Positions 45,536 through 64,000 of a stretch of 64,000 nucleotides of DNA are shown piece after piece. This DNA is from Phycicoccus sp. Soil802 (GTDB lineage: Bacteria; Actinomycetota; Actinomycetes; Actinomycetales; Dermatophilaceae). Position numbers and translations under genes: made by a program. The DNA lies in assembly GCF_001429605.1 (NCBI RefSeq), contig NZ_LMSS01000005.1, positions 478,618 through 542,617 of the forward strand. The letters run 5' to 3'. Position 1 is the stretch's first letter, and each line of letters opens with the position of its first letter. The notes under the pieces are model-generated. The model did no database searches and was not told the DNA's origin. It worked only from the letters and a program-made list of their open reading frames with translations.

Positions 45536-48500
45536 CTAGTTGCGAGGACCGACCCAGAGGTCGTCCACGCCGTACCCGACAGGACCGTTGGTGGTGCTGC
45601 CGCTCAGGTAGGCGTACAGGCCGATGGATCCGGGCGCCTGCAGTGCCGCCGCGCTGTCCGTGGTGGTGAGGGTCCAGGCGGCGGGCTCTGTGGTCCCGGC
45701 CTTCCAGATCTTCACCCGCATGGTGGTGGGGTTGGTGCCCCAGGTCTGGAGCTTGACCTTCATCGTGTCGCCGGCGTTGTACACGAGACCCGGCACCGTG
45801 ATGCTGGTGAGGACCGTCTCGGTCGCACCCTCGTTGCGGGTCAGCCAGACCGCCGTGGCGCCACCGGCTGCGAAGCGGATCTTCGCCCGGTAATCGGCGG
45901 TGGAGGTCACCCGGCGTCCGAGGACGCTGATGTACTGACCGCCGCCCGTCGGTGCCTTGTCGGTCGTGACCGCGACCTCGTACTGGTTGTCCGTGTTCGA
46001 GATGCTCGGCAGCGACGCCGTGTAGCCGTCACCGGCGTTGAGGCTGACCCGACCGAGCCCACCGGAGACCGACCACCGGGTGGCCACGCCACCGAGCGTC
46101 CAGGCGCCCCCGAGGTCGGCGGCGCCCCACCCGGAGGCGAGGGTCCGGCCGAAGGCGTCCTGCGCGAAGGCGGTGAGCGCGACGACCGTGATGTCACGGG
46201 ACAGGGTGCCGGTGGCGCCCTGGTCGTCCGTCACGGTGAGGCGCACCGTGTAGGTGCCCGCCGCGGCATACGTGTGGCTCGCGGTGGCGCCGGAACCGTC
46301 GGCGGTGCCGTCACCCCACTGCCAGGCGTACGACGCGATGGTGCCGTCGCCGTCCGCGGATGCCGAGCCGTTGACCGACAGGGCGAGGAAGCTCTCCGAG
46401 TCCGTGAACGACGCCGTCGGCGCCTGGTTGCCCGCCACGGTGAAGGTGGCCGTCTTCGTGTCGGTGCCGCCCCTGTTGTCCGTCACGGTGAGGCCCACCG
46501 TGTAGGTGCCGGACGCGGCATAGGTGTGGGAGGCCGTCGCGCCGGAACCGTCGGCGGTGCCGTCACCCCAGCTCCACGCGTAGGACGCGATCGTGCCGTC
46601 GGGGTCGCTCGACGTGGACCCGTTGACCGAGGTCTGCAGGAACGTCTCGCTGTGGGTGAAGGCGGCCGTCGGCAGCTGGTTGGGCGCCTGCGACACGGTG
46701 ATCGACCGGCTCGAGGTGCCCGTCAGGCCCTGGGCGTCGGTGACGGTGAGGCCGACCGTGTAGGTGCCCGCCGCGGCATACGTGTGGCTGGCCGTGGCGC
46801 CGGAACCGTTGGCGGTGCCGTCACCCCAGCTCCACGCGTAGGAGGCGATCGTGCCGTCCGGGTCGGACGACCCGGACCCGTTGACGGACAGGGCGAGGAA
46901 GTTCTCCGAGTCCGTGAACGAGGCCGTCGGCGCCTGGTTGGCCGCCACCGTCACCGAGGCGGTCTTCGTGGCCGTGGCGCCGTCGTCGTCCGTCACCGTG
47001 AGCGTCACCGTGTAGGTGCCGCCCGCCGCGTAGCTGTGGTTGGCGGTGACCCCGGAGCCGGCGGCGGTGCCGTCGCCCCAGTTCCACGAGTAGGTGGAGA
47101 TGGTGCCGTCGGCGTCGGTCGAGCCGCTGCCGTCGACCGCGAGGTCGAGGAAGGTCTTCGTCGACGTGAAGGCCGCGGTCGGCGGCTGGTTGACCGCCAC
47201 CTGCCCGGTGGCCTCGTAGTGGGCCCGGACCTGCGCACCCGTGAGGGCGGTCGGGTAGACGGCCACCTCGTCGATCTCGCCGGCGAAGTAGCTGCTCGTG
47301 GTGTTGCCGTAGTTGCGGTCACCGCCGAGACGCCAGTAACCGGTGTAGCTCTGCGCGTCGGTCGCCGCGGCGGAGGCGGACAGGACACCGTCGACGTAGA
47401 GCTTCATGCCGTCGGCACCCTGGGTCGCCACCACGTGGTGCCACTGCCCGTTGTTGAACGAGGTGGTCGTCGCGGCGAGGGTGCGCACGGCACCGTTGGT
47501 GCCGAACTGGAGCCGGCCGTTGTTGAGCATGACGACCTCACGGTCGTACGACGTGCTCAACCCGGTGGTGGCGCTGCCGAACCCGATGATCTTGCCGCCA
47601 CGCGTGGTCGTGGTCTTGAACCAGGCCTCGGTGGAGTAGGTCTTCGGGTTGTTCCAGGCCTCCTTGGCGACCACGAGACCGCTCGACCCGTTGAAGGTCG
47701 CGTCGCGCACGGGGGTGCTGGCAGGGGACCCGCCCGAGGTCAGGGAGACCCCGGTGACGATCGACCCGTCCTGACCGGCCGACGAGGAGTCGGCCACGGT
47801 CGAGCCGGACGTCTCGTTGAGGCGCCAGTAGAAGTCCGGGGACGATCCCGTCACTGCCTGCGCGTAGCCGTCGGTCGGGGTGGGCGAGGTCCACGCGGCC
47901 GAGCGACCGGAGGCGAGGTACTGCGCCTGGATCTCTGCCTGGCTCAGCACGGTCGGGAAGACCGAGACCTCGTCGATGGTGCCGGACAGACCAGCGTTGG
48001 TCGGGCGGTTCGACAGTCCCGAGGTCTGGTCGGCGAAGAGCCGCCAGAAGCCCTGGAAGGTCGCCAAGGTCACCGGAGTCTGGTCGCGACCGACCCGGCG
48101 GCCGTCCACGTAGAGCGAGATGCCGTCAGCACCGGCCGTCGCCGTCACGAGGTGCCACGCACCGTCGTTGACGCTGCGCGTGCTGGTGACCGTACGGGCG
48201 GTCCCGTTGGAGGTCATGAACGCGATCCTGTTGCCGCTGTTGACGTACAGCACCAGGTCGTTCGAGGTGCTGTTGTTGGTCTGGCTGGTGCCGAACCCGA
48301 TGATGCGTCCACCGGAGGTGCTGGTGGTCTGCATCCAGGCCTGGACGGTCGCCTCGACCGGGTGGCTCTCGGCATACGTCGTGTAGAGCTTGGGGCTGGT
48401 TCCACCGCTCGAGCGGACCGCGGCGTCACCGGTGGTGGCACCGGACTGGCCGAAGGTGACGCTCGTGGAGGTGCCGTCGCCGGCGCCCACGGAGTCGAGG

Positions 48501-50239
48501 AAGCCGGGCCCGGTGTCATTCAGCCGCCAGTGGTGCAGCGGGTTGTCCGCCCGGACCGCGGAGAGGTAGGCAGGGGTCGGGTCGGACGACACGGTGACCG
48601 GAGCCGTCGCAAGGCTCCACTGGACGTTGCCGTCCTTGTCCTTGGCCCGCACCTTGTAGGTGTGGGTGGTACCGGGTGCGACGCCGGTGTCGGTGAAGCT
48701 CAGGCCCGGGAGGGTCCAGAAGTTCGACGCCGACGTGAAGTTGCCGATGGAGGGGCCACCGTCGCGGTAGACGTCGTAGGTGAGCGTGGCGTCGTCACGG
48801 TCCCAGACGCTCTTGAAGAAGAGCTTGACGCGGCCGGCCTCGGTCGAGGTGGCGACCGGGTTGAAGGCCGCGGTGTAGATCGGCTTGGACAGCTTGGGGG
48901 CGGCGTTCGGTGCGGCGAACCGGACCAGGCCCTGCTGGGCCACGCCGTTGACCATCGGGAACTCGCCGCCGAAGCTCAGGTAGGTGCCGTTGCCGGTGAC
49001 CGACCAGGCCGCCTGGCGGTCGGGGGTGAAGTTGCCGAACTCGAAGTCGGGGAACCAGTGCAGGATCCCTGCGTACGGGAAGCCCCGGAAGTCCCAGCCG
49101 TAGGCGTCCTTGACCGTGATCATGCCGGTCGGGAAGGTCGGGGCGGCAAGGGCCTTCTGCCAGCGCGAGCGCGGGCTGGTGTCGGGGAACGAGCCGACGA
49201 CGGTGCAGTCGTGCTGGTGGGCGACGCTGTAGAGGACCTGGTTCATCGGCCAGGTGCTGTAGTTGTCGCCGAGGCAGTCGTTGATCCAGTTGATCGCGCC
49301 GGTGTCGGGGTTGGCCGAGAAGGTGCCCTCGAAGGAGGCGCCGGAGCCGAACGCGTAGCCCGAGCCGAACACCTGCGTGCCGTCGGTGGACAGGCTGGTG
49401 ATGCCACCGTTCAGCCCGGCGGTGCGGATCGAGGCGTTGGCCGCCCACGGCAGCACCGCGGCGGTCGTCGCGTCGACGGCACCCATGCCGTAGGCAGAGA
49501 CACCGCCGAGGGTCTCGAAGGAGCCGGCCAGGATGACCCGGCTCTGGTCGGGGGACATGACCATCGCCAGCACGGTGGCGTTGGAGCCCCCGGCGGTCGG
49601 CGACCAGGGCAGCAGCGTCGTGGAGGCTGCGGCGAAGGCAGCCCCTCCCGCGCGGGTCTGGCCACCGGCCGACGGGAAGCTGCCGCCGGCGTAGACGGTG
49701 GAGGACGTCGCGACGATGGCGCGAACCTGTCCACCGATGTTGGGGGTCCAGTTCGTCAGCGTGCCGCCCGCCGTGTTGAACGAGGCGATGTGGCCGCGGG
49801 AGGCGCCGTCGACGGTGGTGAAGTCGCCGCCGACGTAGATCTTGGAGCCGTCGGGCGAGGCCGCGATGGCCAGGCCCTGGGCGTTGAGCGAGTGGCTGAA
49901 CGCCGCGACCGGGTTACCGGTGGTGATGTCGTAGGCGAAGATGTTGAGGGCGTCGATCTCTCCGGCGCCGCCCACGGCCACACCCGGGGGGCGAGCCTTG
50001 GTGAAGCTGCCCGTCACGTAGACGGTGTTGCCGACGATGACCTGGGCCCACACGACACCGTTGATCTGCCAGGTGGGCAGCGCGTCGGCAGTTACGGTCG
50101 TGGGGGTCGGCGGAGTCGGAGCAGGGTCGGCCGCATGGGCGACCCCACCGGTCAGCGTGATTCCCCCCACCAGGAGGGCGGTGGTCGCGACCACTGCGCC
50201 GGCACGGCGGATCAGACCGCCGAAGGCCTCAACGTGCAT
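45536..50239 (-). CDS. Giant secreted propeller/LamG/PKD protein, paralogue B
   Basis: 1,567 residues from ATG 50239, with GGAAAGGCAG upstream; longer frames have no ribosome site and no signal sequence. The signal peptide is AGAVVATTALLVGGITLTGG, cut after AHA near 36. The domain order matches paralogue A: propeller-like 43-450 (IYVGGDFTTVDG), fibronectin-III-like 453-546, LamG at 556-770 and 793-1,000, PKD x4 at 1,013-1,351, C-terminal domain 1,360-1,567 (DDLWVGP end). It is 57 bases upstream of A and clearly a tandem duplicate. Its start overlaps the flippase stop by 11 bases, so its expression is tied to polysaccharide assembly. No cell-wall sorting signal. Confidence 0.85.
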   Translation of the reverse strand: MHVEAFGGLIRRAGAVVATTALLVGGITLTGGVAHAADPAPTPPTPTTVTADALPTWQINGVVWAQVIVGNTVYVTGSFTKARPPGVAVGGAGEIDALNIFAYDITTGNPVAAFSHSLNAQGLAIAASPDGSKIYVGGDFTTVDGASRGHIASFNTAGGTLTNWTPNIGGQVRAIVATSSTVYAGGSFPSAGGQTRAGGAAFAAASTTLLPWSPTAGGSNATVLAMVMSPDQSRVILAGSFETLGGVSAYGMGAVDATTAAVLPWAANASIRTAGLNGGITSLSTDGTQVFGSGYAFGSGASFEGTFSANPDTGAINWINDCLGDNYSTWPMNQVLYSVAHQHDCTVVGSFPDTSPRSRWQKALAAPTFPTGMITVKDAYGWDFRGFPYAGILHWFPDFEFGNFTPDRQAAWSVTGNGTYLSFGGEFPMVNGVAQQGLVRFAAPNAAPKLSKPIYTAAFNPVATSTEAGRVKLFFKSVWDRDDATLTYDVYRDGGPSIGNFTSASNFWTLPGLSFTDTGVAPGTTHTYKVRAKDKDGNVQWSLATAPVTVSSDPTPAYLSAVRADNPLHHWRLNDTGPGFLDSVGAGDGTSTSVTFGQSGATTGDAAVRSSGGTSPKLYTTYAESHPVEATVQAWMQTTSTSGGRIIGFGTSQTNNSTSNDLVLYVNSGNRIAFMTSNGTARTVTSTRSVNDGAWHLVTATAGADGISLYVDGRRVGRDQTPVTLATFQGFWRLFADQTSGLSNRPTNAGLSGTIDEVSVFPTVLSQAEIQAQYLASGRSAAWTSPTPTDGYAQAVTGSSPDFYWRLNETSGSTVADSSSAGQDGSIVTGVSLTSGGSPASTPVRDATFNGSSGLVVAKEAWNNPKTYSTEAWFKTTTTRGGKIIGFGSATTGLSTSYDREVVMLNNGRLQFGTNGAVRTLAATTTSFNNGQWHHVVATQGADGMKLYVDGVLSASAAATDAQSYTGYWRLGGDRNYGNTTSSYFAGEIDEVAVYPTALTGAQVRAHYEATGQVAVNQPPTAAFTSTKTFLDLAVDGSGSTDADGTISTYSWNWGDGTAAGSGVTANHSYAAGGTYTVTLTVTDDDGATATKTASVTVAANQAPTASFTDSENFLALSVNGSGSSDPDGTIASYAWSWGDGTANGSGATASHTYAAAGTYTVGLTVTDAQGLTGTSSRSITVSQAPNQLPTAAFTHSETFLQTSVNGSTSSDPDGTIASYAWSWGDGTADGSGATASHTYAASGTYTVGLTVTDNRGGTDTKTATFTVAGNQAPTASFTDSESFLALSVNGSASADGDGTIASYAWQWGDGTADGSGATASHTYAAAGTYTVRLTVTDDQGATGTLSRDITVVALTAFAQDAFGRTLASGWGAADLGGAWTLGGVATRWSVSGGLGRVSLNAGDGYTASLPSISNTDNQYEVAVTTDKAPTGGGQYISVLGRRVTSTADYRAKIRFAAGGATAVWLTRNEGATETVLTSITVPGLVYNAGDTMKVKLQTWGTNPTTMRVKIWKAGTTEPAAWTLTTTDSAAALQAPGSIGLYAYLSGSTTNGPVGYGVDDLWVGPRN
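46185..47200. repeat. Four PKD-encoding tandem repeats (gene B)
   Basis: Units of about 250-260 bp with shared blocks such as the CGGCATACGTGTGG segment and a common GACCCGTTGACCGA block. They are more varied than those of gene A. One unit is almost identical to gene A units, a sign of exchange between the paralogues. Confidence 0.75.
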
Positions 50240-51608
50240 GGTGGACTGCCTTTCCAAGACGAGCACCGCCGAGATCGGCGTTGCCGGGACGAGCACCGAC
50301 GAGCGGTGCGTCGACCAGCGGGTCACTGGTGGAGGTGGAGCTGGTGACCTGGGGCTGCCGCTGTTCACGCAGCATGGGTGCCAGGACGATCGAACGGGTG
50401 AGGAGACCGCCGACGAAGGGACCGACGGCGAGGACGAAAGGTGTTGCCTGGTAGGGCAACCCGATGGCCAGCAGCCCCGCGAGCGAGGCGAGCGACACGA
50501 AGGCGTCGGCGAGCCGGACGACGAGAGCGGCGCGCTGGCGGCCGCGGGCTGCCGCGAGGCTGACGAACGGCTGCAGCGTGGCTGTCGCGGCGGCATACAC
50601 CGCCCAGCCGAGCACGGTGACGGCCGGGAGCGTGAACGAGTCGCCGGTCACCCACGGACCCACGACCGGCGCCACAGCCCACAGGAGGACCCCGAGGGCC
50701 AGCGCCCCACCGGCCAGCCCCAGGGAGCTCCTGGACGCCCGCGCGACCAGGGCCCGCAGCGGCAGCGAGCGGTCGCGGGCGTAGGAGGCGAGCAGGTAGG
50801 AGCCGATGCCCTGGATGGCAAGGATGGCGGGGGCGACGTAGATGCGGGCCGCCTCGACCTGGCCGAGTGCGGCGCCGCCCGCCACGGCGATCACCAGGAC
50901 CCGCATGGCGGTGAAGACACCAGGATTGACCGACACCTGCGCGCCGCGCCACCCGCCGAAGGAGGCGACCTGGCGGATCCGCGCACCACGCAGGGAGACC
51001 AGGCGGCGCTCGTCGGCCGGCGCCAGGGCGATCGCGACGACGAGACCGGCGAGCTGGCCCGCGGCGATGGCGACGAAGAAGGTGCCGAGGGCGACGGTGC
51101 CGACAGCGGACACCACCACGAGGGCAACCATCGCGACCACCAGGGCCACCGAGTCGACCACCACGAGCCGCCAGAAGCGCAGCGTCGCCATGAGCAGGCG
51201 GCGGGCCACCTCCTCGACCTGGAAGAGGGCTGCCGCGACGCAGAACCACGCCGCCTCGGCCGGCTCGAGCACCCCGAACGACCACAGGGTCACGGTGGCG
51301 GCGACCGGACCGAGCAGGGCGAGCACACCGGCCCACCACTGCAGGCCCGCGCGGAGCCCGCGGTCGTGACGGTCGAGCACCGTGAGGGCATCACCGACGA
51401 ATCCACTGGTGACCGCGGTCGTCAGGATGATGACGCCGAGGCACAGCGCCAGCTCGCCGAGGCCCCGGGCACCGAGCAGGTGGGCCGCTGCGACCTGCAG
51501 GCCGAAGCTCGCCGCCGCCTGCCACACCTGGGCCACGAGGGCCCCGGCGGCATGCGACGAGGCGAGCGACCGCAGCCGCCCGAGTCGGGGAAGGGAGCCT
51601 TGGGTCAC
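50229..51608 (-). CDS. Polysaccharide flippase (Wzx-like, MATE/MOP superfamily)
   Basis: 459 residues from GTG 51608, overlapping the lipoprotein stop (GTGA). About 12-14 hydrophobic helices run from HAAGALVAQVWQAAASFGLQ to FVLAVGPFVGGLLTRSIVLAP. The N-terminal A-x2-Q...A-H-L-L-G-A-R-G-L-G-E region is typical of Wzx. It would move the lipid-linked repeat unit across the membrane. The C-terminal ~50 residues are disordered and end within the start of gene B. Confidence 0.82.
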   Translation of the reverse strand: MTQGSLPRLGRLRSLASSHAAGALVAQVWQAAASFGLQVAAAHLLGARGLGELALCLGVIILTTAVTSGFVGDALTVLDRHDRGLRAGLQWWAGVLALLGPVAATVTLWSFGVLEPAEAAWFCVAAALFQVEEVARRLLMATLRFWRLVVVDSVALVVAMVALVVVSAVGTVALGTFFVAIAAGQLAGLVVAIALAPADERRLVSLRGARIRQVASFGGWRGAQVSVNPGVFTAMRVLVIAVAGGAALGQVEAARIYVAPAILAIQGIGSYLLASYARDRSLPLRALVARASRSSLGLAGGALALGVLLWAVAPVVGPWVTGDSFTLPAVTVLGWAVYAAATATLQPFVSLAAARGRQRAALVVRLADAFVSLASLAGLLAIGLPYQATPFVLAVGPFVGGLLTRSIVLAPMLREQRQPQVTSSTSTSDPLVDAPLVGARPGNADLGGARLGKAVHHAR

Positions 51609-57390: not shown

Positions 57391-59634
57391 ATGGATAGGC
57401 CGACCCCCCACGACGCACTGGCCCAGGTGCTGCGTGACCACGGTCGGGTCGTCGGCAGCAATCCCGACCGGGTCCGCGGCCTGCTCTCCGACATCCTCGG
57501 GGTCGACGGTCGAGAATTCCGCGCCGAGGTCGACGCGCTCGTGGTCGCCTGCGAGGAGGGCGTGCCAGCCCTCCTGATCGGCACCGTCGAGTCGGCCGAC
57601 TCGGCAGTCACCGAGGGGGTGGGGCTGCTCGAGGCGCGTGGCCTGACGACGGACCGAGCAGCCGACGCGACCCTCACCTGGGCCTCGGCGCTGGACGCGC
57701 AGGTGTCCGAGTCCTTGTGGACGTCCCTGTCGTCCCGGCGATCCGACCCCACCCCAGGCCCGCGCGGCGGTGCGGTCCTGGCCACCGACGACACCTACCT
57801 CCCCCCTCCGCCGACGTTCGGCGCGTCTCCGGAGGCGCCGGGGACCTCCGCACCGGCCGCTCCTCCTCCGTCATCCGCCCCATCCAGGCCGACGCCGCCC
57901 CAGGACGTCCTCGACGTTGACGAGGCGGCAGGCCCCCGGTCTCGCCGGGTCGCGCTGACGATGGCGCCGGGGAGCAGGGTGCCGGTCGCCGCCGCACTCG
58001 TCGTGGCGGCTCTCGTCGCGAGTGCACTGGGAGCCAAGGCGCTCTGGCCCGACCGCCCAGACACCGCACACCCCCGTCCCGCGGCCGCGAGCGGGGGAAC
58101 GCTGCGCATGACCGCGAGCAGTGCACTCACCTGGGACCCCATGGAGACGACCGACCCGGGCTTGCGCCTCCTGATGAACCGGGCGCTCTACCGTGGGCTC
58201 GTCGCCTTCGACGCCGCCGCCGACGACCGACCGGCACAGCTCGTCGCCGACCTCGCGACCAGCACCGGACGGACCGTCGACAAGGGAAAGACCTGGTCCT
58301 TCGAGCTGCGTCCCGACGTGCGGTGGGAGGACGGGACACCCGTCACCTGCGCCGACGCCAAGGCCGGGGTGGCCAGGGCCTTCGGAGCTGCCAAGTTCTT
58401 CGGCTACTCCTACGAGGCGGCAGTGCTCATCGATGTGCCGCAGGGTGCGGACGGGCTGCCGACCTACAAGGGGAAGGGCACCGCAGGAATGGCGGCCTTC
58501 GACCGCGCGGTGAGCTGCGCGGGGTCGACGCTGACCTTCCGGCTCGCGTTCCCGGAGTACGAGTTCCAGCGCTACCTGGCCCTACCCGAGCTGGCTCCCT
58601 TCCGGGCCGCCCCCGCGGTGGGAACCGGCACCCGCTCACTGTCCAACGGGCCCTACGTCGTGGACGCCAGGAGCGCCTCGGCCACCACGGTCGCGTTGGT
58701 GCGCAACGGCCGTTGGTCCGCGACCACCGACGGCCTCCGGCCGGCCTTCCCCGACCGCATCGAGATCACCACCGCGGACGTCGACGACGTCGCCGCGGGA
58801 CTGGCTGCCGATGTCGTCGGGTACCGCCGGACGGTGACCCTCAGCGCGCTCCCCGCAGCGGTCGACAGCGCCTTCGCCAGTGCTCCGGACCGCTCGCAGG
58901 TCGCCCCGGCCGGCGTGACCGAGCTCCTCATCCCCAACCTCAGGACGGCGACGATGGCGTCGACGGCGAACCGCCGGGCGTTCGCGCTGTCGACCGACCG
59001 CGCGTCATACGTCGCCGCGATGGGCGGCCCGGCGTCCCGGATGGAGCAGCGTTCCACGGCGGGCACCTACCACAGCGGCCCCACCGTCGCGTTCGACCTG
59101 CAGCAGGCCCGCAACCTGCTGGCCGGCGACAAGCCGCGCCTGAAGGTGGCCTACCACTCCACTCCCGAGTCGGAGCGGGCCATGGCCGCGCTCTCCGCGG
59201 GGTGGAAGCAGGCCGGTTTCGCCGTCAACCTGGTCGCCTTCAAGGGCGACAAGGGCGCCTACGTCAAGGCCATGGCGGACGCGGCGACGACGACCACCTA
59301 CGACGTGGTGCGCGCCGACCACGTCGACGGCCTCGACCGCTCCCGGACGGCCCAGAGCGTCGACCCCCGGTTCGTGGCCGGTCTGCCGGCCGCCGAGGCC
59401 GCGACCCTGACCTCCGCCATCGACAGCGCCATCGGGACCGCCCCGGGACCGGCTCGTGACGCGGCCTGGCTCAACGTCGACGACGTCATCTCCGTCCTCG
59501 CCCTGCTGGTCCCGCTCGCCAACCGGGCGTCCCTCGTCGGCAGTGGCTCCGCGGTGCGCGGGGCCACCACCTCACTCGAGTTCTCCGGGGCCATCGACCC
59601 CCTCCGCATCTCGCTCGCCCCCACCGAGTCCTGA
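57391..59634 (+). CDS. Membrane-anchored solute-binding (SBP_bac_5-like) protein with shared N-terminal adaptor domain
   Basis: 747 residues. Residues ~4-105 form a helical domain (ALAQVLRDHGRVVGSNPDRV, GLLSDILG, then EVDALVVACEEGVPALLIG) that recurs in the next two genes. A Pro/Ser-rich linker (about 135-185) leads to one membrane helix (VPVAAALVVAALVASALGA, about 197-216). Outside, from about 235 to 740, is a family-5 extracellular solute-binding domain (LRLLMNRALYRGLVAFD, TWSFELRPDVRWEDGTPVTCADA, NRRAFALSTDR). Such domains usually feed oligopeptide ABC importers, but no permease or ATPase is nearby and the anchor is an N-in helix rather than a lipoprotein signal. This points to a receptor rather than a transporter subunit (inference). 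An operon with the next two genes is likely. Confidence 0.78.
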   Translation: MDRPTPHDALAQVLRDHGRVVGSNPDRVRGLLSDILGVDGREFRAEVDALVVACEEGVPALLIGTVESADSAVTEGVGLLEARGLTTDRAADATLTWASALDAQVSESLWTSLSSRRSDPTPGPRGGAVLATDDTYLPPPPTFGASPEAPGTSAPAAPPPSSAPSRPTPPQDVLDVDEAAGPRSRRVALTMAPGSRVPVAAALVVAALVASALGAKALWPDRPDTAHPRPAAASGGTLRMTASSALTWDPMETTDPGLRLLMNRALYRGLVAFDAAADDRPAQLVADLATSTGRTVDKGKTWSFELRPDVRWEDGTPVTCADAKAGVARAFGAAKFFGYSYEAAVLIDVPQGADGLPTYKGKGTAGMAAFDRAVSCAGSTLTFRLAFPEYEFQRYLALPELAPFRAAPAVGTGTRSLSNGPYVVDARSASATTVALVRNGRWSATTDGLRPAFPDRIEITTADVDDVAAGLAADVVGYRRTVTLSALPAAVDSAFASAPDRSQVAPAGVTELLIPNLRTATMASTANRRAFALSTDRASYVAAMGGPASRMEQRSTAGTYHSGPTVAFDLQQARNLLAGDKPRLKVAYHSTPESERAMAALSAGWKQAGFAVNLVAFKGDKGAYVKAMADAATTTTYDVVRADHVDGLDRSRTAQSVDPRFVAGLPAAEAATLTSAIDSAIGTAPGPARDAAWLNVDDVISVLALLVPLANRASLVGSGSAVRGATTSLEFSGAIDPLRISLAPTES

Positions 59635-59645
59635 AGGAACCTGCC

Positions 59646-60914
59646 ATGTCCGAGAACCAGCCCGAGGCCACAGCCGAAGCCCTGCAGCGTGCCGTCCGAG
59701 ACCTCGGTCGACGCGTCGGAGAGAGCCCCGACCGGGTGCGTGCCGTCCTCTCGGACGCCCTCGGCGCCGCCGCCCGCGAACACCGCTCTGAGATCGACGC
59801 GCTGGCCCTGGCGAGCGAGGAGGGGATCCCCTCGACTCTCATCGGCCGCGAGGAGTCGATGCTCACCGAGTCGGACGTGGCCCTCGACGACGGCAGGCTC
59901 CGGGCTCGACTCGTCGAACGCGGGCTCTCCGACGGTGCTGCTGACTACGCCATCGGGGTGTGGGCGGCTGCCCTCGGGTCCGTCACCACCCTGAGCGCCA
60001 CCGGGGGCCTGACCTCGGCGGTGTCCGGCCCGAGCGTGGGGTCGGTCTCCGATCCCGCGACGGAGCTGCCGCACGAGGGCGCAGCCGACGGCGCGGTCGA
60101 CGACGCAGGTGATGCCGGAGGCATCCTCGGCTTCCCCGTGTCCGCCGACCAGCCGGCCCGCCACCGACAGGTGGTCCCACTGGGTCGACGCGTGATGGCG
60201 GGATCGGCGGCCGCGGTCCTGGCCGTCGTGGCCGGGGCGGTGTGGTTCTCGACGGTCGGCGACGGGACGGACCGGACGACCCTCACGGACTCTGCGCTGC
60301 GCAGCCCGAGCGGCACGACGACGTCGGGCGCGACCACGGCCACCACCGGTGCCGCGACGAAGGTCCCGCCAGTGACCGCCACGGCGACCACGAAAGCCCC
60401 CACCAAGCCGCCCACCAAGGCGCCCGCAGCGCACAGCAGCACCTCGACGCCGCCGAAGCGCACGTCGAGCTCGACCCCGCCGAAGCGCACGTCGAGCTCG
60501 ACACCGCCCAAGAGCTCGTCGACGACGTCGAAGTCCGTCGCGCCGCCGCCTCCTGCGCCCAAGACCCTCAGGGCCGGCAACACGAGCGCAGCCTGGACCC
60601 CCAAGTTCTACGAGGACGGCATCGGGCAGTGCGTCGACTTCGTTCCTCCCAACGCAGCCGACAACCTCTGCCAGGCCAAGATCAACGTCGTCAAGTCGGG
60701 AACCGTGACGACCTGGTCGATCGCCAACGCGTCCTCGGTGAGCGGACACGGCTCGGTCAGCATCAGTGGCCACCAGATCCTCTACACCCCCCACCACAAC
60801 GGGTACTTCACCGACACCATCAGGTACCGGCTCACCGGGAGTGGCGTGACCAGCAACTGGGCGACCATCGCCATCACGGTCTACTGCAATGAGCAGATGG
60901 GGTGCTGGGGGTGA
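59646..60914 (+). CDS. Single-pass membrane protein with adaptor domain and beta ectodomain
   Basis: 422 residues. The shared helical domain is at about 8-110 (ALQRAVRDLGRRVGESPDRV, AVLSDALG, EIDALALASEEGIPSTLIG). A membrane helix (VMAGSAAAVLAVVAGAVWF, about 183-202) follows. Outside is a Thr/Pro/Lys linker with a tandem KRTSSSTPP repeat (27-bp DNA period at 60454 and 60481). A ~110-residue beta domain (TLRAGNTSAAWTPKFYEDG ... ITVYCNEQMGCWG) with four cysteines closes the protein. No known family for the ectodomain. AAGGA precedes the ATG by 8 bases, and the gene lies 11 bases after the solute-binding gene. The stop overlaps the next GTG. Confidence 0.7.
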   Translation: MSENQPEATAEALQRAVRDLGRRVGESPDRVRAVLSDALGAAAREHRSEIDALALASEEGIPSTLIGREESMLTESDVALDDGRLRARLVERGLSDGAADYAIGVWAAALGSVTTLSATGGLTSAVSGPSVGSVSDPATELPHEGAADGAVDDAGDAGGILGFPVSADQPARHRQVVPLGRRVMAGSAAAVLAVVAGAVWFSTVGDGTDRTTLTDSALRSPSGTTTSGATTATTGAATKVPPVTATATTKAPTKPPTKAPAAHSSTSTPPKRTSSSTPPKRTSSSTPPKSSSTTSKSVAPPPPAPKTLRAGNTSAAWTPKFYEDGIGQCVDFVPPNAADNLCQAKINVVKSGTVTTWSIANASSVSGHGSVSISGHQILYTPHHNGYFTDTIRYRLTGSGVTSNWATIAITVYCNEQMGCWG

Positions 60915-62098
60915 AGGACGTGCGACTCACTGACCGTTGGTCCAGCCCGGTGGGCGAAGCGCTGGCCGCCGCCCTGGCGGGGAACCCCTTGGCGTTCGCC
61001 GGGCAACCCTCACAGCTGCGGCTCAAGCTGACCCGCCTGCTCGGCGACGACGCCCACACCTACCGCGCTGACGTGCACCTCGTGGTGACGGCGCTCGACG
61101 AGAACGTGCCGGCCGAGCTGCTCGCCGCTGCTCCGCTCACGTCGGCCGACCTGCACCGCCACGCGCAGATCCTGGCGCAGGCCCGCGGCTGGACGGACGA
61201 CGCCGCGCTCACTGCGATCGGCCACTGGCTCCGAGCGCTCGGGATCGATGCGGCCGAGGCTCCCGACCCCGCATCCGTGTCGGATGGTGGCTGGGTCGGG
61301 TCGACACCGTCGGCCGGAAGCATCTCCAGCACCGACTCCGACCAGGCACCGGGCTCGACCCACGGTTCGGACGGTGCGGACCGGGGCGACGACCCCGATG
61401 GTCGCTCGACCGCGGCACCCGGCGGCGTCGGAGTCCCCCTCACCTCGGGGGCGGAGGACGCATCCACGGTCCTGCCTCCCGACCGCAGGCTCGACCCGAT
61501 GGCCACCGAGCTGCCCGACCGGTCGTCGGTGGTGGCACTCCCAGCAGAGCCCGCACCTGCGCCCACTCCCGGCCGCACCGGCGTCCCCGCCCTCCAGCCC
61601 GGGGGCGAGGCTGCCCCCACGGTCCCCTGGCCCGCATCGTCCCGCTTCGCGGTTGCTCAGGCGATCCAACGCGAGGGCTTCCCGATCGGGGCCTACTACG
61701 CATTCCGCGGCAGGAACCCCCACCTGAGGTATGCCGCCGTGGCCCTCTTCGCGGTCCTCGCTGCGGCCTCGCTCGTCCTCCCCGCAGGCCTGGCTCGCAT
61801 GGGCGTCCTGGCGGTGCTCATCGCGGCGGTCCTCGTGGTCCCGCTGAAGCTCGTGCGCAACGGCATCATGGTCGTGGACGACAACGGATTCCGTTGGTAT
61901 CCAGCACTTTCCAAGACTGGACCACCAGAGCTGAACGTCCCATGGTCAGGGGTCCAGGTCGCACCTGGCAACCCACCGCGGTTGCTCACGCCCCAGGGGG
62001 ACCTGTGGCTCAAGGGTCGCACGGGCCTGGTCGAGGCACTCGAGTCGCGCACGCCAACGGCGCAGCAGCAGCCGTCGTCACCGGCGAGCCCCCGATGA
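60911..62098 (+). CDS. Membrane protein with adaptor domain and PH-like cytoplasmic tail
   Basis: 395 residues from GTG that overlaps the previous stop (GTGA). Residues ~12-110 are a more divergent copy of the shared domain (ALAAALAGNPLAFAGQPSQL, LTRLLGDDAHTYRADVHLVVTALDENVPAELL). An acidic Ser/Asp-rich linker follows to ~240. Two close hydrophobic helices (about 273-293 and 298-318) make a hairpin, and the C-terminal ~75 residues (IMVVDDNGFRWYPAL...WSGVQVAPGNPPRLLT) resemble a bacterial PH domain. Both ends are therefore cytoplasmic. It ends 5 bases from the convergent kinase gene. Confidence 0.7.
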   Translation: MKDVRLTDRWSSPVGEALAAALAGNPLAFAGQPSQLRLKLTRLLGDDAHTYRADVHLVVTALDENVPAELLAAAPLTSADLHRHAQILAQARGWTDDAALTAIGHWLRALGIDAAEAPDPASVSDGGWVGSTPSAGSISSTDSDQAPGSTHGSDGADRGDDPDGRSTAAPGGVGVPLTSGAEDASTVLPPDRRLDPMATELPDRSSVVALPAEPAPAPTPGRTGVPALQPGGEAAPTVPWPASSRFAVAQAIQREGFPIGAYYAFRGRNPHLRYAAVALFAVLAAASLVLPAGLARMGVLAVLIAAVLVVPLKLVRNGIMVVDDNGFRWYPALSKTGPPELNVPWSGVQVAPGNPPRLLTPQGDLWLKGRTGLVEALESRTPTAQQQPSSPASPR

Positions 62099-62103
62099 GT
62101 CGG

Positions 62104-63390
62104 TCAGGTGGCCAGGCGGGCCTCGACGTCGCCGAGGCGGAGCACGGTGTCCGGGACGAGTGCCACGGCCTGTCCGGGTTCGATCTGCGTCGGCTCCCGC
62201 CCCGGGATCCGGGCCTCCCAGGTGGCACTGCCGGTGTTGCGCAGTCCCCACACGTCCCGCGTCGGGTGCCGGGTGACCTCTCCGACGGTGCGCTCGTAGT
62301 CGTAGTCCTTCGCGATGTGGTGGCGGTAGATCCGCGTCCCCGCGCCGAGCGCGAGCTCGGTGTGGGGGAAGACCAGGCGCATGGGCTTCGGCAGCACGGC
62401 CGAACAACCCCAGCAGGTCGTGGGGACGCCCGGCCCGGAGAAGTTCTCGCGGCCGCAGGCCTCGCAGGTCCGGACCGCGTCCAGGAGGCGCGCGAGGGTG
62501 GCGCGCCAGACACTCTCCCGGACCCGTCGCTGCGGGTTGCGGATGCCCTCACCGAAGGCCTGCACGAAGAGCCGCTTGACCGGTTCGGGGTGGATGGCCC
62601 AGTTCGCGAGCACGGTCTGGTGCTCGACCGGGTCGGGGGCGTTGGCGTCGTCGGTGGGGTCGAAGACGAAGAGGGCGCGGTCACCGAACAGGTCGCCCTC
62701 GGCATCGCGGTCCAGGCAGGGGTACTCGAGCTCACGCCGGCCGAGGAGGGGGTGGTGCACCATCAGCACGTAGAAGATGAGCACGGCCAACGAGTAGAGA
62801 TCCGTCTCGCTGCCCGGCTTGGCTTCCCCGCGCACGATCTCGGGGGCCATGAACCGGCGCGTCCCGAGGACGCCGCTCTCGCTCTCCCCGTCCACGCCCA
62901 CGTTGTCGTTGTCGCAGATCAGGATCGCGCCCGACCGCGGGTCGAAGGAGACGTTGCCGAAGCTGATGTCGCGGTAGCAGAGGCCCTGCGAGTGCAGCAG
63001 CAGGAAGCCGTGCGCCATGCCCAGGCTCAACCGCACCGCCAGGGACGGGGTCACGTCGACACGGCCTCTCAGCATCTCCCCCAGACCCACGAACTCGGGC
63101 GGCCGGATCGGCATCACGTAGCCGAAGCTGCCGTCGGGTGCGCTGATCACCTCCATGGGCCACAGGAACATCGGACCCGGGCTGTGCCTCGCTGCGACGG
63201 CCGTGATCGCAAGGCGCTGCTTCTCGCTCACCGACCTCGCGGCATACCACTTGAGCGCCAGCCGTCGGGCCGAGCCGTCCTGGGGTACCAGCTCGTGGAC
63301 CGTGCCCTGACCACCCTCGCCCAGGAGGCGGCCCACGGTCCACTGCGTGGCAGAGCGACGCAGCGTCACCACGTCCCCGGGCCTGACCAC
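62104..63390 (-). CDS. Serine/threonine protein kinase with Zn ribbon and FHA-like C-terminus
   Basis: 428 residues from GTG 63390. Kinase fold: glycine loop LLGEGGQGTV (22-31), Lys 47 in ALKWY, catalytic loop YRDISFGNV (Asp 141, Asn 146) in place of HRD-x4-N, and DND (160-162) in place of DFG. APE appears as MAPEIVRGEA. A four-cysteine Zn ribbon (CEACGRENF...CWGC) lies around 305-330. The last ~90 residues (TRIYRHHIAKDYDYERTVGEV...WGLRNTGSATWEA...LRLGDVEARL) look FHA-like. Zn-ribbon kinases of this kind accompany TerY vWA proteins in TerY-P triads. It is divergent from the vWA gene and convergent with the three-gene operon. It appears catalytically competent despite the altered motifs. Confidence 0.82.
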   Translation of the reverse strand: MVRPGDVVTLRRSATQWTVGRLLGEGGQGTVHELVPQDGSARRLALKWYAARSVSEKQRLAITAVAARHSPGPMFLWPMEVISAPDGSFGYVMPIRPPEFVGLGEMLRGRVDVTPSLAVRLSLGMAHGFLLLHSQGLCYRDISFGNVSFDPRSGAILICDNDNVGVDGESESGVLGTRRFMAPEIVRGEAKPGSETDLYSLAVLIFYVLMVHHPLLGRRELEYPCLDRDAEGDLFGDRALFVFDPTDDANAPDPVEHQTVLANWAIHPEPVKRLFVQAFGEGIRNPQRRVRESVWRATLARLLDAVRTCEACGRENFSGPGVPTTCWGCSAVLPKPMRLVFPHTELALGAGTRIYRHHIAKDYDYERTVGEVTRHPTRDVWGLRNTGSATWEARIPGREPTQIEPGQAVALVPDTVLRLGDVEARLAT

Positions 63391-63475
63391 GGGCTGGCCC
63401 TCCCCTCCTCGTCCACGCCCATGATGGCACCCGCACCTCGCGCTCGGGGCCCGATTGCCACCCGGAGGTCCGACC

Positions 63476-64000
63476 ATGCCTGAACGACCCGGCAGCCGAC
63501 TCGCCCAGCGGCCCCTGCACTTCTTCATCCTCGCGGACTGCTCGGGGTCGATGGCCAGCGACGGGAAGATGCGGGCGCTCAACGCCGCGATCCGCGAGGC
63601 GCTCCCACACCTGAGCGAGGTGGCCGACGGCAACCCCCACGCCGACCTGCTGGTGCGGTGCATCGCGTTCGGCACCGGGGCCCGGTGGCACGTCGAGACC
63701 CCGACGCCGGTGGACGAGCTGGTCTGGGACGACCTGGGCAGCGGCGGCTACACCGACCTCAGTGCCGGCCTCGACCTGCTGAGGTCGGTCCTGACCGTGC
63801 CCCCGATGGAGACCCGCGCCCTGCCACCGGCCATCGTGCTGATCTCCGACGGCATGCCCACGGACGAGTACACCGAGTCGCTGGAGCGGCTCGAGGCCGA
63901 GCCGTGGGGCTCCCGCAGTGTCCGGATCGCCGTGGGGATCGGGCGAGATGCCGACCACGCGATGCTGGTGCGGTTCATGGGCGATCCCGATGCGGAGCCG
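63476..64000 (+). CDS. vWA domain protein, TerY-like (3' truncated by window)
   Basis: The first 175 residues, still open at the end of the window. The MIDAS metal site is complete: DCSGSM (about 21-26), the threonine in GGYTDL (about 90) and SDGMPTD (about 124). RPLHFFILADCSGSM as an opening is characteristic of TerY-type vWA proteins of the tellurite/stress-response group, which act with a PP2C phosphatase and a Zn-ribbon kinase. GGAGG precedes the ATG by 8 bases. The kinase gene is 85 bases away on the other strand, so both probably share a control region. Confidence 0.85.
   Translation, partial: MPERPGSRLAQRPLHFFILADCSGSMASDGKMRALNAAIREALPHLSEVADGNPHADLLVRCIAFGTGARWHVETPTPVDELVWDDLGSGGYTDLSAGLDLLRSVLTVPPMETRALPPAIVLISDGMPTDEYTESLERLEAEPWGSRSVRIAVGIGRDADHAMLVRFMGDPDAEP

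Follow-up and report, generated by a model that had tools for sequence, protein, structure and literature searches.

TerY-P triads join a TerY-like vWA protein, a PP2C phosphatase and a kinase with a C-terminal Zn ribbon, and have been hypothesised to act as a metal-sensing switch; in Type III-A CoCoNuTs they occur with an EssC-like ATPase and WXG100 (PMC11090510; this and the other PMC sources are cited for the passages available to us). Among type VII secretion systems (T7SS), T7SSc of Bacillota comprises WXG100, an FtsK-type ATPase without FHA, a kinase with a transmembrane (TM) helix, a vWA protein and a PPM phosphatase, while T7SSd has a membrane kinase (TsdD), TsdH and TsdI and no ubiquitin-like protein (PMC11217815). 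The third GAP1-N2 theme, from Actinobacteria, contains a Zn-ribbon kinase with a beta-rich domain, PP2C and a standalone vWA protein, and the same work proposes that helical effector-associated domains (EADs) recruit effectors and signalling components (Kaur 2020, PMC7159879). In the threonine-phosphorylation pathway of the type VI secretion system (T6SS), a kinase, a phosphatase and an FHA protein gate secretion, and tagQRST acts upstream of the kinase (PMC5995506). Here we describe a locus of Phycicoccus sp. Soil802 (genome G000) in which such a triad adjoins three membrane receptor genes whose products share an N-terminal domain of ~95 aa, called SD below. The window, that is, the whole stretch of DNA analysed, is 64,000 nucleotides long (G000:C5:478618-542617 of the 4.29-Mb genome), and the contig sequence beyond its end was also read for open reading frames (ORFs).

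These systems are the closest known to the locus. The three TerY-P proteins are encoded in adjacent genes here, together with an FHA-fold kinase tail, SD receptors and a membrane-type T7SS cluster that set it apart, and no DNA-processing families were recognised nearby. As in T7SSc, WXG100, an FtsK-type ATPase, a kinase, a vWA protein and a PPM phosphatase are encoded together, but the ATPase carries two FHA domains, unlike that of T7SSc, the kinase has a Zn ribbon and an FHA fold, and SD receptors are present. With T7SSd it has in common Actinomycetota, an FHA-bearing ATPase, a protein kinase and WXG100; in contrast to TsdD, the sole hydrophobic peak of our kinase falls within the kinase domain, and a Rothia locus that we read as T7SSd-like belongs to the sister group without SD. 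CoCoNuTs and the H. pylori TerY-P island (PMC4978471) likewise combine TerY-P with FtsK/EssC-like ATPase and WXG100 genes. In the CoCoNuT ATPase, a coiled coil takes the place of the FHA and TM parts at the N-terminus, restriction or DNA-processing genes surround it, and the available sections on either system contain no SD receptors. The triad of the third GAP1-N2 theme is of the same type as ours, but no GAP1 or GTPase family was recognised here, SD receptors and T7SS genes standing instead. Streptomyces locus L081 (2838-11290), where a triad of the same kinase family is found with GAP1-N2, GAP1-M, GAP1-C and DO-GTPase2 proteins and without SD, fits that theme as far as it is described in the cited passages. 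SD itself recalls the EADs (PMC7159879, PMC8195603, cited passages) as a small, non-enzymatic, helical domain with many partners, repeated on diverse proteins of one system; it differs in having no consistent Pfam match and in that no fusion of it with the kinase, vWA or PP2C protein of the triad was seen. The T6SS pathway uses another secretion machine and other proteins, and its likeness is one of analogy only.

The shared domain and its link to the kinase

In several phyla, SD is found alongside this family of kinases. A GTDB genome scan with a four-row kinase alignment gave at least 565 confirmed places, the best 80 of which were taken as kinase loci. SD is present in 67 of these; the triad is complete in 64, and 59 of the 64 have SD. 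Three of the remaining triads (L044, L050 and L062) are on contigs that break off 1.9-2.7 kb to one side of the kinase. These counts come from an iterated hidden Markov model (HMM) seeded with the four G000 copies of SD (threshold E<=0.01), which recognised 98 domains, four in G000, four in genome G003 and 90 in the 80 kinase loci. An HMM from the four G000 copies alone found SD in 46 of the 80 loci at the same threshold, and the chance control returned no match in 10344 reversed and 10344 shuffled ORFs. In 30 kinase-bearing genomes, hand-chosen mostly for long contigs, SD occurs in 28, and 31 of 33 kinase copies have it within 20 kb. Forty-five of 47 SD rows in this subset lie on the kinase contig, at most 15,040 bases from the kinase (median 2,078), two of the 47 (G455:C16, 15633 and 15701) being pieces of one place. 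SD was thus rarely found away from the kinase in these genomes, rather than mostly without it.

The AlphaFold2 model of SD is all-helical (pLDDT 90, pTM 0.82). For 60 SD sequences, no Pfam family matched more than one (E<=1) and no NCBIfam family matched any (E<=0.01). Foldseek against the PDB and viral structures gave no match at E<=0.001, and the best PDB chain for the SD profile had an E of 0.46. A relation to the Bcl family was considered, since VIA-align placed a Bak chain first (Z 4.7), followed by other Bcl-family chains, and was rejected because this score is too low for a helical bundle. We found no description of SD with a TerY-P triad in one open-licence library and the passages cited, a weak negative considering that Anantharaman 2012 may describe it; the available passages of PMC10907252, PMC7517822 and PMC3482391 contain no mention of an SD-like domain with this triad. 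SD is apparently a small adaptor domain not yet named in print.

The partners of SD are diverse. Ten SD proteins, hand-picked for recognisable tails, carry FGE-sulfatase, Lcl_C, LRR, WD40, ankyrin, TPR, beta-helix, LRR_5, RCC1 and SH3 modules. Two of eight further actinobacterial SD proteins had a family above its cut-off: the G510 protein has three PASTA domains (9.9e-36) and the L023 protein Glucodextran_B (4.7e-7). No family was recognised in the SD protein of L043. None of the 98 SD ORFs also matches vWA or PP2C, and one, in L049, weakly matches the kinase profile (2.2e-10). This ORF (L049:5457-7214, minus strand), from a deltaproteobacterial metagenome-assembled genome (MAG), has a kinase-like stretch and a hydrophobic segment together with SD, and is a natural SD-kinase fusion distinct from the triad kinase.

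The membrane receptors

The three-gene membrane operon with a common domain that the original prediction had proposed was borne out: SD aligns at the N-terminus of all three products, with 27-45% identity to the copy of receptor 2 and 30-44% to that of receptor 1. Receptor 1 indeed carries a solute-binding domain, and receptor 2 has one TM-like segment and the expected small ectodomain, which a sub-cut-off match (Big_9, E 0.0017) suggests may be Ig-like. A "PH-like" membrane protein was also claimed, but Pfam gave no support for this label on the C-terminal part of receptor 3, and it is kept as a guess. TM-like and hydrophobic segments are those of a simple Kyte-Doolittle scan. The solute-binding receptor belongs to the system here and is not a fixed part of it, as one SD protein of G510 has PASTA domains instead. 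Three SD genes adjoin the kinase in G510, encoding the PASTA protein, a homolog of receptor 3 (tblastn 2e-25) and a protein whose tail resembles receptor 2, the last judged by eye. A G448 protein resembles receptor 3, again by eye.

Between G000 and G003, identity is 80-83% in SD, 28-62% in the receptor linkers and 74-75% in the ectodomains (for receptor 1, SD 82%, linker 31%, solute-binding part 75%). The corresponding values are 94% for the kinase, 95% for vWA, 71% for PP2C, 81% for the ATPase, 99% for the WXG100 protein WXG1, 60% for the 369-aa protein and 59% for the 303-aa protein. In G003, receptor 3 (L016:14636-15852) shifts frame between SD and the TM part, its two tblastn pieces lying in different frames; the gene there is either broken or misassembled, and no score could be given past the linker.

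The kinase, vWA and PP2C triad

The adjacent kinase, vWA and PP2C genes form a complete TerY-P triad. The original prediction had recognised two of its members and suggested a search past position 64000, which revealed PP2C; no Ter, MoxR or DNA-processing families were among the Pfam matches of the scanned cluster proteins, the rest of the genome not being searched. Catalytic residues are conserved among the homologs from the kinase loci: K47 in 84/88, D141 in 91/92 and N146 in 92/92 for the kinase, and D46 and G47 in 66/66, H48 in 64/66, D206 in 66/66 and D254 in 65/65 for PP2C. The TerY-like assignment of the vWA protein was upheld by its MIDAS residues D21, S23, S25, T93 and D125, each kept in 69/69 homologs, and the Zn ribbon of the kinase by C309, C312, C326 and C329, each present in 89/89. 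The G003 kinase aligns with that of G000 across all 428 aa.

The earlier label "FHA-like" for the kinase holds as a fold, because the best Foldseek PDB rows are FHA domains. The model of the tail (aa 299-428), built on 52 sequences, has a pLDDT of 88.8, and the 50 best rows are either titled FHA or, like EmbR, TIFA, OdhI, GarA and CEP170, are what we take to be FHA proteins (probability 0.98-1.00; best E 2.8e-3, no row at E<=0.001). VIA-align gave Z up to 10.1, with an rmsd of 3.4 over 92 residues, and 72 chains at Z >=8.

The type VII secretion genes and the ATPase clade

The module sits in a T7SS cluster that lies beyond the window; adjoining the triad, it reaches ~77.2 kb in window numbering. 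It is identified by an FtsK/SpoIIIE-type ATPase and a WXG100 protein (Table 1). Both score below the curated NCBIfam cut-offs: the ATPase reaches 427.5 bits for EssC (cut-off 778.4) and 345.9 bits for EccCa (cut-off 509.15), and WXG1 36.4 bits for WXG100_ESAT6 (cut-off 44.85). The YukD-like segment of the ATPase (E 8.2e-5, 23.7 bits) is also below its cut-off of 27. The G-R...S-R-x-H pattern of FHA domains is kept in both domains of the ATPase, in one of the protease and in that of the SARP regulator. EccB, EccD, EccE and mycosin were not recognised on the cluster proteins scanned, and a search of the source genome for EccB gave no match, its controls being likewise silent.

The neighbourhood is conserved elsewhere, and neither of the two outcomes named as refuting the original prediction was seen. 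The ATPase, the triad and SD occur together in five actinobacterial loci (G000, G003, G510, G448 in L023, and G459 in L053). G510, which belongs to another family of the order, keeps the gene order apart from the protease. Homologs of WXG1 were matched in G003, G510 and G459, and WXG100-like ORFs were seen by eye in G448. Of 149 genomes of the order, two contain the N-terminal part of the ATPase (E<=1e-50); these are G000 and G510, each of which also has the triad and SD. In a 14-row ATPase tree, in which unlike letter make-up was flagged for 10 rows and which has no T7SSc-j references, the five loci form one clade with 100/100 support; its neighbours are from Rothia, Embleya, two Streptomyces and Streptantibioticus (96/97), and two EccC and two Bacillota rows fall outside. 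The 26-28-kb stretches round these sister ATPases contain no SD and no triad gene except for a weak kinase match in Rothia (7e-8). The Rothia terrae plasmid locus (L117:3186-14137), T7SSd-like, encodes a protein kinase, a large hypothetical protein and an FtsK-type ATPase, followed by an RHS protein gene.

Proposed role and alternative explanations

The system is real and recurring. TerY-P and T7SS are known kinds, and the apparently unnamed adaptor domain is the most interesting part of the system; the triad itself was already known from TerY-P and the third GAP1-N2 theme (Kaur 2020, cited passages). We propose that SD is probably a docking adaptor that couples interchangeable sensors to the TerY-P switch, and that this switch controls T7SS in this lineage. 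In this mechanism, a ligand would bind to a receptor part that the predicted topology places outside the cell and that is of solute-binding or Ig-like type or, in G510, made of PASTA domains. The intracellular SDs would then rearrange, so that the kinase and its vWA partner are recruited or released, and the kinase would phosphorylate threonines of the cluster proteins. These marks may be read by the FHA domains present in the ATPase, in the twin-FHA protease and in the SARP regulator, and this reading would gate WXG100-linked export and transcription; PP2C would reset the switch. The original prediction that an outside signal passes through the shared domain to the kinase/vWA module stands insofar as the module is tied to receptors through SD; the direction of signalling is still inferred. 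A wider claim, which we put forward tentatively and with less than even confidence, is that SD is an undescribed multi-phylum adaptor that makes TerY-P a plug-in receptor-kinase system, with sensor and kinase on separate proteins, and that, within a single clade of actinobacteria, threonine phosphorylation lets it gate a new T7SS subtype, a type VII counterpart of the T6SS pathway.

Several observations weigh against this proposal. Of the 90 SD proteins found beyond G000 and G003, 66 have no TM-like segment after SD; the domain is hence not bound to sensing outside the cell. Two Streptomyces triads (L081 and L093) are without SD despite full flanks, and GAP1-N2 genes lie beside the triad in L081, the one examined. 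The kinase stands alone in eight of the 80 loci; seven have less than 4 kb on at least one side, and L083 has more than 8 kb on both. The SD model (A3) derives largely from these loci, which makes the presence of SD near the kinase partly a matter of construction; this applies less to its scarcity elsewhere in the 30 genomes, though distant SDs may be missed. In a sample of 396 Actinomycetota genomes drawn regardless of SD, SD was found in two (one at E 9.6e-6), the kinase in three and both in one, and the system is too scarce in this sample for co-occurrence to be measured. The kinase is present but SD is not in G161 and G299, where the iterated HMM found no SD in the stretches taken. Four of the five T7SS loci (G000, G003, G448 and G459) were ascertained via the window or the kinase, G510 alone via the ATPase. 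The protease was matched in three of the five (G000, G003 and G448) and the SARP-FHA regulator in four (G000, G003, G448 and G510), G459 having FHA-type matches only, and no envelope channel partner was recognised. By eye, other residues stand at the canonical FHA G-R and S-R-x-H positions of the kinase tail in the family alignment, which makes phosphothreonine binding by the tail uncertain. A link between TerY-P and T7SS is not new in itself, since TerY-P beside WXG100/FtsK is known in other settings (PMC11090510, PMC4978471, cited passages). The locus is also accessory and rare, the kinase being present in two of 58 relatives, the source genome counted, and in one of ten of the same genus.

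The many SD proteins without a TM-like segment would fit another explanation, which we consider unlikely, that they are outputs: SD would tag substrates or effectors (LRR, WD40, FGE, SBP) for the kinase, and the trigger would be internal, for example the Zn ribbon, the vWA protein or the FHA tail. EADs have been proposed to recruit effectors too (Kaur 2020, PMC7159879), and the metal-sensing hypothesis for TerY-P (PMC11090510) points the same way, as far as the cited passages go. However, the SD proteins of this lineage do have TM-like segments, their recognised ectodomains are of ligand-binding type (SBP, PASTA), and no toxin family matched on the SD proteins scanned. Still less probable is a TerY-P module for phage defence or conflict, in which infection would trigger the triad and the T7SS genes would export or release a toxin. 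The passages cited from PMC11090510 report TerY-P-like modules active against phage as well as the CoCoNuT association with EssC-like ATPase and WXG100, and the patchy distribution among same-genus relatives would suit such a module. Against it, the PADLOC matches of the kinase (PD-T4-6, MAD6 and other kinase models) lie solely across the kinase domain, the other five proteins scanned had none, and the scanned cluster proteins gave no match to a nuclease, helicase or restriction family apart from weak P-loop matches of the ATPase.

That three independent islands (receptor operon, triad and T7SS genes) adjoin by chance is very improbable. The region is accessory, because most same-genus relatives are without the kinase, and T7SS ATPases related to ours are found where neither SD nor a comparable triad is present. 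Nevertheless, the G510 gene order, the joint presence of SD, triad and ATPase in two MAGs, the single ATPase clade and the linkage of SD and kinase in several phyla largely refute it.

Returning to the adaptor proposal, if SD accepts PASTA, SBP, LRR, WD40 and FGE modules, it would offer a testable answer to what feeds signals into TerY-P triads. If the proposal is true, a receptor-gated, phosphorylation-controlled type would join the T7SS variants, which could account for the repeated occurrence of FHA domains, kinases and phosphatases in T7SS clusters.

Gene map and neighbouring features

Positions above 64000 in Table 1 continue the window numbering and lie outside the window; positions in L003 and L004 equal the window position minus 56000 and minus 75000, respectively.

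Table 1. Genes of the receptor, triad and secretion locus
Feature	Position	Strand	Basis
Receptor 1: SD (aa ~1-105), linker, TM-like segment, extracellular-type SBP_bac_5	57391-59634	+	PF00496 2.6e-30; SD alignment; hydrophobic peak
Receptor 2: SD (aa ~1-112), TM-like segment ~183, Thr/Ser/Pro-rich stalk, small ectodomain	59646-60914	+	SD alignment; hydrophobicity scan; Big_9 below cut-off
Receptor 3: SD, long linker, hydrophobic segment, C-terminal part	60911-62098 (ORF open from 60902)	+	SD alignment; hydrophobicity scan
Ser/Thr kinase, C4 Zn ribbon, atypical FHA-fold tail	62104-~63390 (ORF open to 63675; start 63390 chosen)	-	Pkinase 1.2e-14
TerY-like vWA protein, MIDAS residues intact	63476-64159 (past the window after 64000)	+	VWA_2 7e-5, 23.8 bits, below cut-off 27
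PP2C phosphatase with TM-like segment	64156-65319	+	PP2C_2 3.4e-34
FHA-FHA-TM-Trypsin_2 protein (twin-FHA trypsin-like protease)	65316-67202	+	family match
BTAD (SARP-type)-FHA regulator	67199-68335	+	family match
FHA-FHA-(YukD-like)-TM-FtsK ATPase	68296-72957	-	FtsK_SpoIIIE 3.9e-45; two FHA 5.4e-30
Fourth SD protein, TM-like segment, small ectodomain	73232-74446	+	SD profile; hydrophobicity scan
WXG100 (WXG1)	74560-74820	+	PF06013 29.0 bits, cut-off 27.3
Second small protein, WXG100-like by reading alone, no Pfam support	74831-75118	+	
369-aa protein, EspG-like label a guess, no Pfam or NCBIfam support	75118-76227	+	
303-aa protein, internal repeats	76270-77181 (L004:1270-2181)	+	
PRPP-synthase-like gene, named by eye	after 77181		

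The 303-aa protein has no Pfam match, contains several copies of a ~25-aa glycine-rich repeat, and is a possible T7SS substrate or partner. Elsewhere in the window, a very large ORF (45536-50596, minus strand) resembles, by eye, a secreted surface protein with PKD/LamG-like repeats; it is overlapped by long antisense ORFs, which is typical of high G+C DNA.

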